DNA of 27,965 nucleotides from Physocladia obscura. Taxonomy: Eukaryota > Chytridiomycota > Chytridiomycetes > Chytridiales > Chytriomycetaceae. This document shows positions 4,901-16,300 of this stretch, in pieces. Each line of letters begins with the position of its first letter. Within the stretch, counting starts at the first letter, position 1. The stretch is from assembly GCA_027596945.1 (NCBI GenBank), contig JADGJH010000060.1:5018-32982 (forward strand), written 5' to 3'. The notes under the pieces were generated by a model that saw only the letters and a program-made list of their open reading frames with translations, ran no database searches and was not told the origin of the DNA. Made by a program: the position numbers and the translations under genes.

Positions 4901-7900
4901 GCTTCTGCACTGTTCAAATCTGGATTGTTTGAAAAGGTGACAAATTGAAGTTAACCATTTCATAAAAAACTGATACAGTATTGATAAGGCAGGTGAATTG
5001 TTCGAGAAACTGGACAGTTATGACAGAGCACTCGATGCGTATAAACGCGGTAAAGCTTTTCGAGCAGCCGTAGAACTTTCGCGAACGATGTATCCTCAGC
5101 AAGTAGTTGTTCTTGAAGAACAGTGGGGAGACCACTTAGTTTCCCAGAAGCAAATGGATGCTGCAATAAATCACTATATTGAGGCTGGAAAATCGTTTAA
5201 AGTACGAATTTTGCAATATTTCGGACATGTGACTGAACTAACTACCAAATTTTAGGCAATCGAAGCAGCTATTGCAGCAAAGCAATGGAAAAAAGCTGTT
5301 GGTATTGTGGATTGCTTGGATCCGCCAGAAAGTGGAAAACCATATTTTATGGAGCTTGCTAAGCATTTTGATTCAATTAGCGATTTCACTCTGGCCGAAA
5401 AGTATTATGTCGCAGCGCGAAAACCTCAAGAAGCAGTTGACATGTATACGAAGGCAAACAAATGGGAAAAGGCCCATGTATTAGCAACTAGTTATATGAA
5501 TCCTGAGGAAGTGGCATTTTTGTACATCAGTCAGGCAAAAGAGATGGAAGCTTCTGGTTTGGCCCTCACTTTTGTTACATTTTTTATAAAAAATATTTTT
5601 ATAAACAGGAAAATTAAAAGAGGCGGAAAAACTTTATCTAACTGTTCGAGAACCAGATTTAGCTATAAATATGTACAAAAACCACAAACACTACGATCAA
5701 ATGATTCGTCTTGTGACGAGTTACCACAAGGATCTTCTTTCAGAAACGCACCTATATTTGGGTAAAACGCTGGAAACTGAAGGGAATTTCAAGCTAGCCG
5801 AGCAGCACTATGTTGAAGGAAAAGATTGGAAGTCTGCAATTAATATGTACTGTGCCAATAATCTTTACGAAGACGCTTACAGAGTTGCAAAGAACTGCGG
5901 TGGTACAAATTCAACGAAACAAGTTGCATATTTATGGGCAAGATCTCTTGGCGGCGAGTCTGCAGTTAAACTCTTAACAAAATTTGGTTTGCTTGAAGCT
6001 GCCATCGATTTTGCAACTGAAAATGCAGCTTTTGAATTTGCTTTTGAATTGAGCAGGTTTGCTGACAAATTCAAACTTTCTGATATTCATTACAAGCATG
6101 GTAAATTTTTCGTTCTTATTTTTATTTTATTTTGTGTGCGTGTGTGTGTGTGTGTGTTTCATTTCAATGTTTCTTCGGGTATTGAAATTGAGATAATATT
6201 TCAGCGATGTACCTTGAAGATGAGGGCAAATTTTCTGAAGCCGAAAGCGCGTTTATTCTCTCTGGAAAACCAAAAGAAGCAATTCTTATGTACATACATA
6301 CAGAAAATTGGACAGAGGCCCTCAAAGTGGCAGAAACATATGAGCCAAGCTCTGCACCTGAAGTACTGATTAGTCAAGCCAAAGTTTCTTTTGACCGAAA
6401 AGACTATAATGCTACTGAAACCTTAATGCTGCGTGCACAAAGACCTGACCTCGTTATCAAATTATACAAAGATACTGATATGTGGAAGGAGTGTTTACAA
6501 TTTGCAAAACAATATCTTCCAAATCGAATGTCAGATCTACATGAAGAATATAATAGGATTTTGACATCTCGTACAAACTCATCTGGTGGAAAAGAGGAGA
6601 TTTTGCAGTCAATTAAAATGTTGGAGCAACAAAAGGATTTTACCAGAGCCATCGATTTATATCTGAAATTTAACGTTCCGCAAGTCACTGATCTGGAATT
6701 TTTGGAACAAGTCTGGGAAAAGGCAGCAGAATTGGCTATAAAATTTGTTCCTGATCGTGGTCAAGAAGTTGTCACACTTGTTTGCTCGCGCTTACTTGGG
6801 ATCAAAAAGTTTGAGCAGGCTGCAGAATTTTATATGAGCATTGAAATGTACAAGGAGGCCATTGATTGTTATGCCAGACTTGGTTTGTGGAATAAAGCCA
6901 AAGAAGTCGTTAACATTGCTCCTAGATTTGGAGAATATTTGGAAACCACTTATATCTCCCATTTAAAAAGCCAGCAAAATGCAGAAGCTTTAGTAAATGT
7001 CGACGCAACAGCGGGACTTGATTTGTTTGTTCAAAGGGGTGAATGGGAAAAATGTCTTGAAAAAGCATCTGGTATCAGCGCAGAAATTATGCATAAATAT
7101 TTGACAATTTATGCCGTGAATTTAATCAAGGAAGAGAAATACGAGTTTGCCTCCCAACAAATCATAAAATATGGTGTTCAATCAAGTTCAACAAACTTGG
7201 ATGTATATTTGCGGTTGACAAGAGAAATTTTACACACAGGAACACCTTCAGGATTGGCTTCAATCAGGGAATTACTTTACAAATTAGTATGTTACATTTT
7301 TTGTAATTTTGACTCCTGACAAGAAAACAGATTTCAGCTTCACCGAACTTGAATCCTCAGTTCCAAAAATATCTTTTTATTTCTCACATACTGAATCTTC
7401 GCAATTACTGTAGCAAGAAGCGCGAGTTAATTTTCCTCGCAGCGAAACAAAGTATTTCTGCGTTGAGATATATTGGAGATATTCCTCCAGATCGAGCATT
7501 TTTTGAGGCTGGCCACTTTTCAAAAGTTTGTCCACTCTTTTATTTCTCCTGATATTAATTTATAATTTTATCAGCTTGCAGGAATTAATAATATGGCTTT
7601 CGTGTGCTGGAACAGATTTCTTGATATAAGCGACGCAATCGAAGAAGGCGATGCATCGCTTTTGGAAAATTCGGATTTTGTCAATACAGATGTTCCATTT
7701 GACGTAGAATTACCGTCGGAAAACTCCAATGTTTGTTGTCTTTTTGATTTTATAATTTATAATTTATTTATATATTTGTTTTCAATTAGGAAAAACAACG
7801 AGATAAGGTTCGTGACTGGGTTCTGCAAGTCTCACTGGATCAAAAAATAAAGCAAGAAGTGGACAGGAGAAACTGTGATGATTGTGGAACCCGTATTTAT

Positions 7901-10915: not shown

Positions 10916-11313
10916 TCAAACAGTTGTCAGTGCCATGTGATTTGCTTTGATTACTTGCATTTTGGCTTTGCTGGCTTTGTTGTCAGACTCTGTGGTCATC
11001 TGTTGCTGTGGTTTACAACCAAGGAAAAACGGGACCACTCTTCCACAGGAAATTGGGCGGAGAGCATAGAAAGGAACAAGATCTGGTGTATTAATGGATT
11101 GCTTCCAGTTGAACAGCAGAAACTGCGACAGAAACAGCGGCAGGGTAAGGGCAATTACATGGTTAGAGGCATTGATTTTGAATACGTGTGTGTCTTTTTG
11201 GCGGATGCGAGTTATCATTGTTTTGTCTCAGGCAAGTTTCTTTCAGCATGACAAACTGCTCTTTTTTCATGAGAGATGGATTAGATAAGGAGCGGTGATT
11301 TTGGAAAAAAAAG
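10916..11313. other. Upstream region of the ornithine carbamoyltransferase gene
   Basis: CpG content is normal again. Open frames of about 100 codons occur on both strands over the same bases, neither with recognisable motifs, so I do not call a gene. The region probably contains the distal promoter of the gene that follows. Confidence 0.45.
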
Positions 11314-11322
11314 TATAAATAA
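11314..11322 (+). promoter_or_regulatory. TATA box of the ornithine carbamoyltransferase gene
   Basis: TATAAATAA lies about 30 bases before a plausible start region (CATCACCATTTCC). From here to 11460 there is no ATG on the plus strand, so the first start codon met by a scanning ribosome would be that of the uORF at 11461. The transcription start itself is inferred. Confidence 0.65.
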
Positions 11323-11460
11323 GGCACAGTTTTGCATCACCATTTCCCAAAAAAAAGTCAACAGGAATCAATCGAGCAGTTTTTTCGCTTTGTTTCCTTT
11401 TCACCGTATACCTTGCTGCTAAACTAGTCGGATATCCCAAGTTTAGCCCCCCCGTATTTT

Positions 11461-11608
11461 ATGTACGCGCACGCCTTTGAAGTTGTCTCACAAGATTATA
11501 TCAGCGAACAGGTTCAGTTTCCTTTTAGAAAGTTATATGAATAACACTGATATTTTGCCTTTTTTGGTTTTTATCATATGGCAGATCTTCAAGTCCATCT
11601 CAGCTTGA
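11461..11608 (+). CDS. Upstream ORF: arginine attenuator peptide (AAP) homologue
   Basis: Exons 11461-11511 (17 codons) and 11585-11608 (7 codons plus TGA) give a 24-residue peptide. From residue 10 it reads SQDYISEQIFKSISA. In the Neurospora arg-2 AAP, as I recall it, residues 10-13 are also SQDY, the length is also 24 and the last residue is also Ala. Asp12, the residue known to be essential for arginine-dependent stalling, is present. The yeast CPA1 peptide shares QDYIS and the I and K spaced behind it. In known systems the nascent peptide stalls the terminating ribosome when arginine is high and so lowers translation of the downstream enzyme. The start context is weak (T at -3), as expected for leaky scanning. 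The stop lies 46 nt before the main ATG once the second leader intron is removed. Identification is by sequence and position only. Confidence 0.88.
11512..11584 (+). other. Intron inside the attenuator uORF
   Basis: Donor GTTCAG follows CAG at 11509-11511. The acceptor is a pyrimidine-rich tract ending ATGGCAG at 11584, length 73 nt. GTT donors are common in this window. If the intron is retained, the conserved C-terminal seven residues are replaced by ten unrelated residues (VQFPFRKLYE) before a TAA, so only spliced RNA encodes the attenuator-like C-terminus. Confidence 0.75.
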
Positions 11609-11652
11609 GCACGAAACAAACGCCTTTTCAAAACATCAAAAAAAGCAAAAAG

Positions 11653-11715
11653 GTGATACAAAAGTTTATTTGTAATGATTTAATAATGACATTACTGACT
11701 GTGCCACCACCTTAG
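11653..11715 (+). other. Second leader intron, ending just before the main ATG
   Basis: Donor GTGATA, branch-like ACTGAC at 11694-11699 and acceptor CCACCTTAG define a 63-nt intron ending two bases before the ATG at 11718. It contains two short ORFs (ATG ATT TAA and a 9-codon one ending in the TAG of the acceptor). Splicing removes both and leaves the attenuator as the only upstream ORF. Predicted from sequence alone. Confidence 0.65.
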
Positions 11716-11717
11716 AA

Positions 11718-12773
11718 ATGACACTGCACAACAACCCAACGAAACACTTCCTCACGCTCAAGACGCAGACGCCATCAGCAATCCTGGCGCTGGTGCACCG
11801 GTCGCTAATGTTCAAGCATCACAAATACCACGGTGACGGTAAAACTGTGGTGCCAGCGTCGGCAGTCAACCAGCTGGCAGGCAAGACACTGGCGTTGCTG
11901 TTTACGAAAAAGTCGACGCGGACGCGTATCTCGGGCGAGGCGGCATGGGCGGCGCTGGGCGGACACGCAATGTTTCTGGGTGCGGGTGACATCCAGCTGG
12001 GCGACGTAGCAAAGGGCGGCGAGTCGTGGCGCGACACCAGTACGGTGGTTGGGTCGATGGCCGACGCGGTGTTTGCGCGGCTGGGGGCGCACAGCGAACT
12101 GGAGGAGCTCGCCGCGTACTCAGCCGCGCCCGTCGTCAACGCGCTGACGGCCAAGTTCCACCCGATGCAGGCGCTGGCCGACATTATGACGCTCTACGAA
12201 GCCGTGCTGGGTCCCGCCGCCGTCGCCTCGCTCGTTGCCACAAATAAGCCCCTGCCGCCGCTCGCCGGCGTCACGGTGGCCTGGGTCGGTGACGCTAACA
12301 ACATCATCAACTCGCTGCTCGTGTCTCTGCCGCGCATCGGCGTTAATGTCGCCGTCGCCACGCCCGTCGGTTACGACATCGATGACGACATCCAGGACTT
12401 CGTGGCTGCCGAGGCTGCCGCCCCGTCGCCTTATCCGTATGGCTCCGTCACCTACACGCGTGACCCTCGCGTCGCCGTCCGCAACGCAGACTTTATTGTC
12501 ACCGACACTTGGGTTTCCATGGGCCAGGAGGCCGAAAAGTCCGCTAAGCTCAGAGCCTTTGCTGGCTACAAAGTCACTGAAGCCATGGCTCGCGACGGTG
12601 GCGCGAAATCTGACTGGCACTTTATGCACTGTCTGCCACGGAAGCTCGAGGAGGTTGACGACGAAGTCTTTTACTCAAAACGTTCTCTCGTTTTTCCCGA
12701 AGCAGAAAACAGGAAATGGACTGCCATGGCAGTATTTGAACATGTGTCTGGCAATAATCCTGCAAATATCTAG
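11718..12773 (+). CDS. OTC: Ornithine carbamoyltransferase
   Basis: Catalyses carbamoyl phosphate + ornithine to citrulline + phosphate, the sixth step of arginine synthesis. Single exon, 351 residues, typical for the family. The carbamoyl-phosphate site is seen as STRTR at 66-70 and HPMQ at 148-151. The ornithine site includes the SMG loop (DTWVSMG, 263-269), GDANN is at 191-195 and the catalytic HCLP at 304-307. The N-terminus (MTLHNNPTKHFLTL) has no convincing mitochondrial presequence, so a cytosolic enzyme as in baker's yeast is possible. The ATG has a purine at -3. The ORF is strikingly rich in G/C third positions and intronless, unlike its neighbours; the bias weakens over the last 150 bases. 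Its mRNA leader carries the attenuator uORF, so repression by arginine is likely. Confidence 0.97.
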   Translation: MTLHNNPTKHFLTLKTQTPSAILALVHRSLMFKHHKYHGDGKTVVPASAVNQLAGKTLALLFTKKSTRTRISGEAAWAALGGHAMFLGAGDIQLGDVAKGGESWRDTSTVVGSMADAVFARLGAHSELEELAAYSAAPVVNALTAKFHPMQALADIMTLYEAVLGPAAVASLVATNKPLPPLAGVTVAWVGDANNIINSLLVSLPRIGVNVAVATPVGYDIDDDIQDFVAAEAAAPSPYPYGSVTYTRDPRVAVRNADFIVTDTWVSMGQEAEKSAKLRAFAGYKVTEAMARDGGAKSDWHFMHCLPRKLEEVDDEVFYSKRSLVFPEAENRKWTAMAVFEHVSGNNPANI

Positions 12774-13313
12774 TCTTTGCCAAGTTATTGAAAAATTTAC
12801 TTAATAAATATATCTATTATTATTATATGATTATCTTTGCGCGAAGTATTCCTTGCAATGAGTGGAAAGGATTTACGTTGAATAGAACAGAGAGTGAGAG
12901 ATAGAGACACAGGTATTCCAGTGTTGTGAGAACAGGAAATGGATCAGTTGGGTTACCATAGAGATTTGTCATCCAGCTACATGATATCCATGCCAATTGA
13001 ATGTTTCAACAGCTCAGTCTTTATTTTTCAGTGTTGTGAATTCGGCTTAAGACTTGTGTAGGTTCATTGCACCGTCAACAATGACACTCAACGCGGTCAG
13101 GGAATACAACACACCGCAACTTTTTCCGTCAGAACTGAAGCAAATTCTGGAATTTGATTCGTCAATTTTGCTTGCGTGTTGAAATGTTGCAAATTGTGAT
13201 ATTGTGCTAAGCTTTCTGCGCGTTTTAACAAAAAAAAGAAAAGGTTGCCACGAATCCGCTATTTCGATTTGAATTTTGTCACTTCCACATAAAAAAAAGA
13301 GTAGTTCAGAAAA
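12774..13313. other. OTC 3' region and IFT80 upstream region
   Basis: No gene is supported here. About 12880-13042 contains no CpG. The 11-base direct repeat CAGTGTTGTGA occurs at 12919-12929 and 13029-13039, about 100 bases apart, which could be the target duplication of a small old insertion or chance. A 34-codon plus-strand ORF starts at 13081 and a 94-codon minus ORF covers 13331-13047; neither shows a known motif and the latter would overlap the IFT80 start. Confidence 0.5.
12803..12808 (+). terminator. Polyadenylation signal of OTC
   Basis: AATAAA lies 30 bases after the OTC stop in very AT-rich sequence. The cleavage site is not visible. Confidence 0.5.
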
Positions 13314-16300
13314 ATGAGACTCAAAATTCAACAGGACGCAACGACACGCCGTTAGTACATATTATAGTCGATCGTTTCGAAAATTCTCAATAAATTCTCA
13401 ATAAATTCGACCAAACAACAAAATTAATAAAAATAGACTCAGACATTGTATCATGTGTGCGTTGGACAGGAAATAACGAGCTTTTTTCATGCGGGTAAGC
13501 CAAAATGCTTGTTTACAAATTCTTTGATCTACATGCACTGAATGTTATTTTCTATCAAATACAGCGATGACCAAAGAATGCACAAATGGAACGGCGATGG
13601 CGACTACATCGGTTCCGTCAATTGCGCCATTTTCGACGCGTCCAGCAATAATAACAGAACATCAAAAAATTCTGCTGCGAATCTCGCGAACGCGTCTCCG
13701 CCCGTATACATCACAGATATGCAGTGGTTTCCACAGTCACAAGGACGATCCGGTGGAGCTAGCGGCGGTGGTGGAGGATCCGAAACTTATGCGGCTGGTG
13801 GAACCGATGGAAAATTCTATCTCTGTTCAAAGACGGGAAGAATAGAAAAAATTGTGGATGCACATAAAGGTGCAGTATTGGCGGTAAAATGGAATTATGA
13901 AGGCTCTGCGCTTGCTACTGGTATAGTAGACAATTTTTATCTATTTAACTTTAAATATTAAAAANNNNNNNNNNAAAAAAAAACACAGCTGGTGAAGACG
14001 GAAACGTCAAAATCTGGTCACGTACTGGAATGCTTCGGTCTGGTTTGGTTCAAAACGGTAACGTCTGAAATAATTTTTTTCGCATTAAAAAGTCAATCGT
14101 CATTAGGCTACCCAATATATGCTCTGGCTTGGTCTCCTGACAATGACAGTATTTTGTATACAAATGGAAGAAATTTAGTCATCAAACCAATTCAGCCTGC
14201 CAGCAAACCTCTTTTGGTAAGCATGAACATTTTTACTTTCACTGGTTATTTATGATCAGCAATCAGTGGAAAGCGCATGATGGAGTTATTTTAGCTGTTG
14301 ATTGGAATATGGCAACGAATTTTATTGTTTCGGGCGGGGAAGATTGCCGTTACAGGGTAATTTACATATATATATGCAATAGTCTTGTCAATAACTAAAA
14401 TATTTACACATAAGGTCTGGGATTCTTTCGGCCGTTTAATGTTTTTAAGTACCGTACATGATCATCCAATCACAAGCTTGGCATGGAATCCTGCAGGCGA
14501 AATGTTTGCAGTCGGGCTGTTCAATACTTTACGTGTTTGCGACAAACTCGGGGTATTTAAGTTTATCTGCGAAATTTAAATTTAAATTTTATATATAGTG
14601 GTCATATGCAGTTGAAAAGCCAGAGTGCGGCTCAATATTCAGTATTGCATGGACACCAGACGGTACACAAATCGCTTGTGCGGGAGGAAATGGATCAGTT
14701 GTTTTTGGGCATATTATCGACAAGTTTGATTTTTATTGCAATATAAAAACTTTTAAATCTAACAATCAATGACAGACGCTTAGAATGGAAAAATTATGAA
14801 GTCACGTTACTTGACGACCGCAAAATCAGGGTGCATGAAGTTGTGCATGGTGCCGTCGAAAATTTAGGTTTGTGTTAACCCTCTCCTGTACACTGAAACT
14901 AAAATATTTACTTTTTTATCTCATGTTGCTTGATTTTTATATATATGTTTTGCCCAGAATTTAGAGATCGCATTGTCAAAGTTTCGCTTTCATTTGGGCA
15001 TCTTATAGTTGCGACATGTGCGCAATGCTATGTATATAGCGAGAAAAACTGGAATACGCCGGTGATTATTGATATGACAAATAATGGTCGTGTTATTTGT
15101 ATTAAGCAAAGCTCTGAGTAAATATTGTGTTTTATTATTCCATTTTTAAATGCTGAATATATATCAGAAATTTTTTAATTGTCGACAATTTTACCGGAAT
15201 TCAAGTTTTAAGTTACGAAGGTAGGGTGGTTTGCAACCCAAAATATACAGGATTACGGCCAGACTTCATTACATCACAATCCATCAGTTTATCAAACGAC
15301 ACGCTTGCAATTAAGGATCGCACAGATGACAAATGTGAAGCGACTTTCTTTCTCACTATTATAATAACAATATTAATAAGAATAATTTTATTAATTTTTT
15401 ATATTTGATTGCACATAGTGATTTACGTTTTCGATATAAGTTCCGGTCGGTTATTGGGAGACGGATCGCCAATTAAAATGCAGTCTGAAGTTGTTGAAAT
15501 TGCATTAAATCAAGTTATTGGCCCAAATGGATGCCGGCAGCTTGCGATTGTTGACAAGAACCGTGAAATGTTTATTACGCCTGTTATTAAACCTGACTTG
15601 AAGAAGCTTGGTTTGAGGATTATTGATTTTTTGCATTTTTTTTTTTCAACATTATTTTTTAAAAAGAAATGAAAAGGTACAATGGTTGATACTTTTTCTT
15701 GGAACGATGAGGCTGATATGATAGCAGCAATTGTCGATTGGAAATTTATGGTCTGGTACTATCCAAATGTTGTGTTCATAGATGCCGATATTGAGCGAAT
15801 GACGCGATACGAGAAAGACGGAAGGTGAATGGCTTTCTCTCTCTCAGCAACAAAACCAATAACTAATGTATCATGTGGGGCAGTCCGTTTGGAAAAAATG
15901 CGCAATTTGTCAGTTTCAATGGCACTCAATGCACTCTTCGTCGAGCAGACGGGGCTCTGATCACAGCCAAGTAATAGCATCAGTTTTTTCCGTTATGTAT
16001 CTCGTTTTTTCTTTTTTGCTGACCCCCACCCCAGCAATATATCTCCTCTACCAGCGATGCTTCAAGAAATAGTTAAAAAGAAACAATGGGAAGAAGCGAT
16101 TCGGTTATGCCGCTATGCAAAGGTATCTATCTATATTTTTATCACCAATGTTGTTATTTATATTATCAATCAGATGAAAGAACTGTGGGCATGTTTAGCA
16201 GTAATGTCAGTCAGCGGTCAAGATTTAAATACAGCCGAGCTTTCATATGCAGCAATAGAGCAAGCGCAAAAAGTTGAGTATATTTGTTATATTCGTGATA

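Follow-up and report, generated by a model that had tools for sequence, protein, structure and literature searches.

A 24-codon upstream open reading frame (uORF) in the leader of the ornithine carbamoyltransferase (OTC) gene of Physocladia obscura is very likely a fungal arginine attenuator peptide (AAP). It would be one of three paralogues, placed before the gene of the arginine-specific carbamoyl-phosphate synthetase (CPS) small subunit (CPA1), the OTC gene and the gene of a GATA factor, stalling ribosomes at high arginine and lowering the three products together. The OTC copy lies in a window of 27,965 nt (the whole stretch of DNA that was analysed), and its 24-codon product, MYAHAFEVVSQDYISEQIFKSISA, results from the predicted joining of 11461-11511 and 11585-11608, 5' of OTC.

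The OTC gene and its leader

On sequence grounds the gene downstream of the uORF is certainly OTC, as the preliminary description had proposed. Its product scored 294.9 bits against the NCBIfam equivalog TIGR00658 (cut-off 280.85) and 285.9 against a second OTC model, NF001986 (below the cut-off of 306), both carbamoyltransferase domains were present (Pfam PF02729 and PF00185), and the best solved structure was a mitochondrial OTC (E 1.3e-92). The protein is 70% identical to the OTC of Chytriomyces hyalinus, and around 70% identity was found to OTCs of Chytriomyces, Podochytrium and Obelidium. It contains STRTR, HPMQ, DTWVSMG and HCLPRK, which we take to be the motifs of OTC.

No presequence is obvious at the N-terminus (window 11718-11830), where the start is close to the domain. 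Several of the 21 homologues compared are likewise without an evident presequence; others are longer at the N-terminus, some of these being the second copies of close relatives, as some relatives have two OTC copies. Unlike OTC, CPA1 of the same genome seems, judged by eye, to have a presequence.

The preliminary description reported a TATA box, no ATG after it until 11461, and from there a uORF of 24 codons after one splice; all of this agrees with the sequence. The uORF ATG lies 147 nt after the start of the probable TATA box (TATAAATA at 11314), and upstream of the uORF the next ATG is found only at 185 nt, on the far side of the TATA box. When the GT...AG segment 11512-11584 is taken out, exactly 24 codons remain, with SQDYIS from residue 10, Asp12 and a terminal Ala24. 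The uORF start has the weak context TTTTATGT. The 5' splice site, GTTCAG, is also weak, poor at +3 to +6, so splicing may be regulated or incomplete; the unspliced peptide would end in VQFPFRKLYE in place of IFKSISA.

Further we noted a probable second leader intron, missed in the preliminary description, which holds two ATGs (11675 and 11686) with the short frames MI and MTLLTVPPP. With this predicted intron removed, the AAP uORF is the sole AUG uORF after the TATA box, the spliced leader from 30 nt past the TATA box contains two ATGs only (the uORF start and the OTC start), and the spacer between the uORF stop and the OTC AUG is 46 nt long and ATG-free. The uORF does not overlap the main ORF, its stop being at 11606-11608 and the OTC ATG at 11718. 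A longer OTC isoform joining exon 1 to the acceptor at 11715 was rejected on inspection, as it would read AAA TGA, a stop. Since this join stops, and since splicing leaves the uORF ATG as the only one ahead of the OTC frame, the uORF does not serve as a hidden exon for an OTC presequence.

Features of the OTC leader and gene (window coordinates) and of the GATA locus
Feature	Position	Strand	Basis
Probable TATA box of the OTC gene, TATAAATA	11314..11321	+	direct sequence
AAP uORF exon 1, MYAHAFEVVSQDYISEQ	11461..11511	+	sequence; two other AAP exons in the same genome
Predicted uORF intron, phase 0 after codon 17, 73 nt, GTTCAG...GGCAG	11512..11584	+	inferred; same codon boundary in the CPA1 and GATA copies
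AAP uORF exon 2, IFKSISA, stop TGA 11606-11608	11585..11608	+	identical IFKSISA in the GATA copy
Probable second leader intron, GTGATA ... TACTGAC ... TTAG	11653..11715	+	inspection of sequence
Ornithine carbamoyltransferase (OTC), 351 aa	11718..12773	+	PF00185/PF02729; TIGR00658; homologues
AAP uORF, GATA zinc-finger gene	2839-2969 and 3101-4186 of C116:5500-12500 (L015)

OTC sits between two intraflagellar-transport genes, IFT172 (window 6192-7316, matching 8bd7 chain S) and IFT80 (window 13542-13958, matching 8bd7 chain I). Beside the IFT80 frame a run of 10 N (window 13965-13974) probably marks a scaffold gap.

Three AAP copies in the genome

The genome searched comprises 21.8 Mb in 1222 contigs, and two of its proteins are 100% identical to Physocladia obscura records (HK100_000787 over 92% of the query, HK100_011671 over 100%). 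A first pattern, made of codons for QDY[IL], then one Ser-like codon, then GA, matched at five places, its control at 1. Three of the five are AAPs; the matches on C273 and C419 were rejected, as they lack a fitting ATG or exon structure. With as many as two mismatches allowed, a degenerate core pattern matched 37 times, the backwards-read control 23 times, and the three exact matches are the same AAPs, on C60 (OTC), C75 (CPA1) and C116 (GATA). No AAP anatomy beyond these three was seen among the 30 matches fetched of the 37. For the one-mismatch matches on C179, C255, C259 and C755, no ATG in frame stands 7-13 codons ahead of the core; the two-mismatch matches on C34 and C589 do have one, but the core of one is TQGYFSEP and that of the other holds a stop. 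An AAP whose core is interrupted by an intron would escape these pattern searches. A protein search of the whole genome with the 17 exon-1 residues returned 3 matches at E<=10, all three of them the AAPs, so by these searches the genome has three AAPs and none further detectable. A PDB search with the AAP peptide gave zero matches.

The preliminary description asked whether the CPS gene of this genome also has an AAP. It has: the CPA1 leader on C75 encodes MYRHSQEVVSQDYISEQ and, after an intron at the same position, IYKGFSTA (25 codons). The predicted intron is 46 nt and the uORF ends 61 nt ahead of the main ATG. In the GATA zinc-finger gene on C116 the leader encodes MYTHEFEVVSQDYISEQ and IFKSISA (24 codons), with a predicted intron of 56 nt and 131 nt to the main ATG. 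The introns of both uORFs were inferred from GT...AG and the common peptide ends. Left unspliced, all three uORFs stop at the same place, giving 27 codons (window 11512-11544; L014 2009-2041; L015 2890-2922), either by coincidence or through residual homology near the branch site.

It would be extremely improbable for the resemblance to be due to chance, or for the OTC copy to be a CPA1 leader misjoined to OTC in the assembly. The motif ATG-x8-[STC]QD[YF][ILVM][ST][DE][HQN] alone is expected 0.0029 times per genome on both strands under a second-order Markov model of the window's composition. Compared in pairs, the copies are identical at 48, 48 and 59 of 72 nt, which makes them distinct and not one misplaced stretch, and window 11200-12800 contains zero N, hence none between leader and OTC. 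We found no point in favour of either explanation.

On inspection, no ATG occurs between uORF and main ORF in the CPA1 (61 nt) or GATA (131 nt) spacers. No TATA box was seen within 400 nt of either uORF and ATGs occur upstream from 96 nt (CPA1) and 141 nt (GATA), so these two leaders may hold more uORFs and are less well bounded than that of OTC. The GATA uORF was assigned by position, as a ClC-type channel gene (Voltage_CLC) further upstream is on the opposite strand. Between that gene and the GATA copy there are two unassigned + strand frames (134 and 104 aa), and together with the distance of 131 nt to the GATA main ORF they lend something to the idea that the AAP exon upstream of GATA, and perhaps the one upstream of OTC, is a stand-alone small transcript or part of another gene. 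We hold this to be very improbable: the nearest identified upstream gene on C116, Voltage_CLC, runs the other way, each of the three main ORFs has the direction of its uORF and begins 61 to 131 nt past the uORF stop with no retained ATG between, and a TATA box precedes the OTC uORF.

The GATA gene on C116 has one GATA finger and belongs to an expanded family, with 34 GATA matches in the 21.8-Mb genome, several of them clustered (C27, C116, C365, C573, C1014, C266). We fetched 30 of these and extracted the finger from 28. Among the 28 loci the best match of the C116 gene was its tail-to-tail neighbour on C116 (48% over 89 residues), and in the stretches fetched for them the AAP peptide was found at the C116:9515 gene only. 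Five database proteins matched the C116 protein, namely itself and four covering 8-18% of its length; the gene looks fast-evolving and lineage-specific.

Elsewhere in the genome two CAD-like pyrimidine loci, C35 and C2, each match CPS small-chain and carbamoyltransferase domains.

Descent and selection among the three copies

The preliminary description held that an AAP homologue stands before OTC and offered transfer of the leader between genes as one explanation, and the three copies with their one exon boundary support this. Common to the three are the start TTTATGTA, the core VVSQDYISEQ and an exon boundary that falls, in phase 0, after codon 17. Residues 7-18, EVVSQDYISEQI, are identical in the three; the variable positions are 3, 5, 6, 19, 21 and 22, and the CPA1 copy is one residue longer.

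The OTC and GATA copies are alike in 22 of 24 residues, and 8 of those 22 codons are silently changed, including a TCC/AGC serine switch. This gives dN 0.081 and dS 1.42 (NG86; rough, as the sequences are short) and dN/dS around 0.06. OTC and CPA1 agree in 18 of 24 residues when CPA1 codon 24 is left out, or 17 of 24 in the MAFFT alignment (dN 0.30, dS 2.18); for CPA1 against GATA dN was 0.27 and dS not computable. For every pair the exon-1 DNA scored above all 500 mononucleotide shuffles. Introns did not rise above shuffles (139, 53 and 167 of 500 reached the score for OTC-GATA, OTC-CPA1 and CPA1-GATA), and neither did spacers (59, 472 and 106 of 500, in the same order). In the 200 nt upstream OTC-GATA was not above shuffles (157/500), and OTC-CPA1 and CPA1-GATA were slightly so (8 and 6/500), possibly from common bases beside the ATG or simple sequence. 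Given the excess of silent over replacement changes and the introns and spacers no better than shuffles, one ancestral AAP was probably duplicated long ago and then kept by selection on the peptide.

Trp19 is absent from all three copies, OTC and GATA having Phe19 and CPA1 Tyr19. It is therefore conceivable that the OTC and GATA uORFs derive from an AAP and have lost the arginine response, acting now as constitutive repressive uORFs or as triggers of nonsense-mediated decay (NMD); the weak GTTCAG of the OTC copy, which could leave much mRNA unspliced, points the same way. We consider such a loss unlikely, as purely constitutive repression requires no specific peptide, while residues 7-18 are identical in three copies and dN/dS between OTC and GATA is so low. 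Moreover, the CPA1 copy, expected to be the functional one, is without Trp19 too.

An environmental CPA1 gene model, P0186, begins MEIIAQSHKFEKVSQDYISEQV, with SQDYISEQ and then V in frame. Its N-terminus looks like the same exon read past the same boundary, as expected if the boundary after EQ predates Physocladia obscura; the model is read in frame into CPA1, which places the AAP end and stop outside view. In a scan of the first 120 residues with three motifs, P0186 was the only such fusion among 120 listed CPA1 homologues (own protein included). No fusion was found among 120 listed OTC homologues (own included), a count uninformative on their leaders, or among 5 GATA homologues (own included). 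As CPA1 is the AAP site in other fungi, and in view of P0186, we infer that copying went from CPA1 to the others.

Proposed mechanism and implications

In known AAPs, high arginine stalls the ribosome at the uORF stop, which blocks scanning and exposes the mRNA to NMD; when arginine is low, ribosomes get to the main AUG by leaky scanning (PMC11550727, PMC3130931). In our scheme, which is modelled on these fungal AAPs, transcription, splicing, stalling and the arginine response are predictions, and what is established directly is the encoded peptide, its three locations, the common exon boundary and the silent-over-replacement excess. The weak AUG (TTTAUGU) would often be bypassed by leaky scanning, allowing a start at the main AUG, and at low arginine those ribosomes that do translate the uORF would finish normally. 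At high arginine the nascent VVSQDYISEQ in the exit tunnel would stall the ribosome at the uORF stop (TGA 11606 for OTC), the stalled ribosome would block scanning to the main AUG, and the mRNA would probably pass to NMD. CPS, OTC and the GATA regulator would thus be lowered together as a translational arginine regulon. An AAP mechanism of this type accords with the weak start, the shortness of the spacers and the conservation of Asp12 and Tyr13.

The preliminary description inferred an attenuator placed on the next enzyme of the pathway, through which arginine would repress citrulline formation directly. The OTC copy bears out the placement, but the arrangement is not confined to CPS and OTC, as a third copy stands on the GATA factor of C116. 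We lean towards seeing the AAP as a cis-acting metabolite sensor that is portable: in this chytrid lineage OTC and the GATA gene would have received copies of the CPA1 leader peptide, forming a three-gene translational regulon in which the stall would also set the level of a transcription factor.

To our knowledge, metabolite-sensing peptide uORFs are few and usually tied to one gene family. The present copies suggest that the AAP sensor can be copied from gene to gene. If so, three paralogous AAPs before three unrelated proteins would mean that a sensor of this type is able to duplicate and give rise to a regulon, in parallel to riboswitches, which build regulons in bacteria, and the AAP on a transcription factor would tie the ribosome tunnel to a transcription programme. 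With this finding the AAP is recorded from a chytrid, on a deep-branching fungal lineage, and three natural variants become available for testing the requirements for stalling.

Comparison with known systems

The OTC copy resembles the AAPs of arg-2 (Neurospora crassa) and CPA1 (Saccharomyces cerevisiae) in being a short uORF of 24-25 codons ahead of an arginine-synthesis gene, with its stop before the main AUG. The fungal core [SC]QDY[IL]S with its essential Asp is kept as SQDYIS at residues 10-15, with Asp12 and Tyr13. Its weak start context fits the leaky scanning described for Cpa1 (PMC11550727), and an AAP homologue has also been described in Cryptococcus (PMC7049704).

As critical AAP residues, PMC3130931 names four: Asp12, Tyr13, Lys14 and Trp19. 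Residue 14 of the OTC copy is Ile, not Lys. The naming of Lys14 may itself be a slip, since residue 14 of the Neurospora peptide is Leu. Compared with the Neurospora and yeast peptides, the copies here have E16 for D, Q17 for H and Phe or Tyr19 for Trp. The replacement of Trp19 is the main sequence caveat to arginine stalling. In contrast to the usual AAP host, the CPS small subunit, which the C75 copy retains, the other two stand on OTC and on a GATA factor. Trp19 is a functional residue reported for N. crassa, which we do not count as family-defining because the organism's own CPA1 copy is without it. A CPS host gene we regard as typical of AAPs and not as defining.

In the literature searched, from which the main survey papers were absent, neither OTC nor a GATA factor was described as having an AAP, and both placements may be unreported. 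The statement in the preliminary description that every known case controls CPS was too strong, as the arginine transporter ApiAT1 of Toxoplasma gondii has an AAP-like, arginine-responsive uORF (PMC8370653). According to its authors a conserved function would be a case of convergent evolution (PMC8370653). Like the OTC copy, the ApiAT1 uORF is AAP-like and stands on a non-CPS gene, and its effect depends on arginine and needs the conserved Asp. As described there, it has 33 residues and is partly similar only, whereas the three Physocladia leaders share one exon boundary and are plainly paralogous. The OTC uORF is an AAP judged by its sequence, its length, the anatomy of the gene and an apparent origin from a CPS leader (17-18 of 24 residues shared with the own CPA1 copy, the same phase-0 boundary and the TTTATGTA start), and it departs from the known fungal members in its target.
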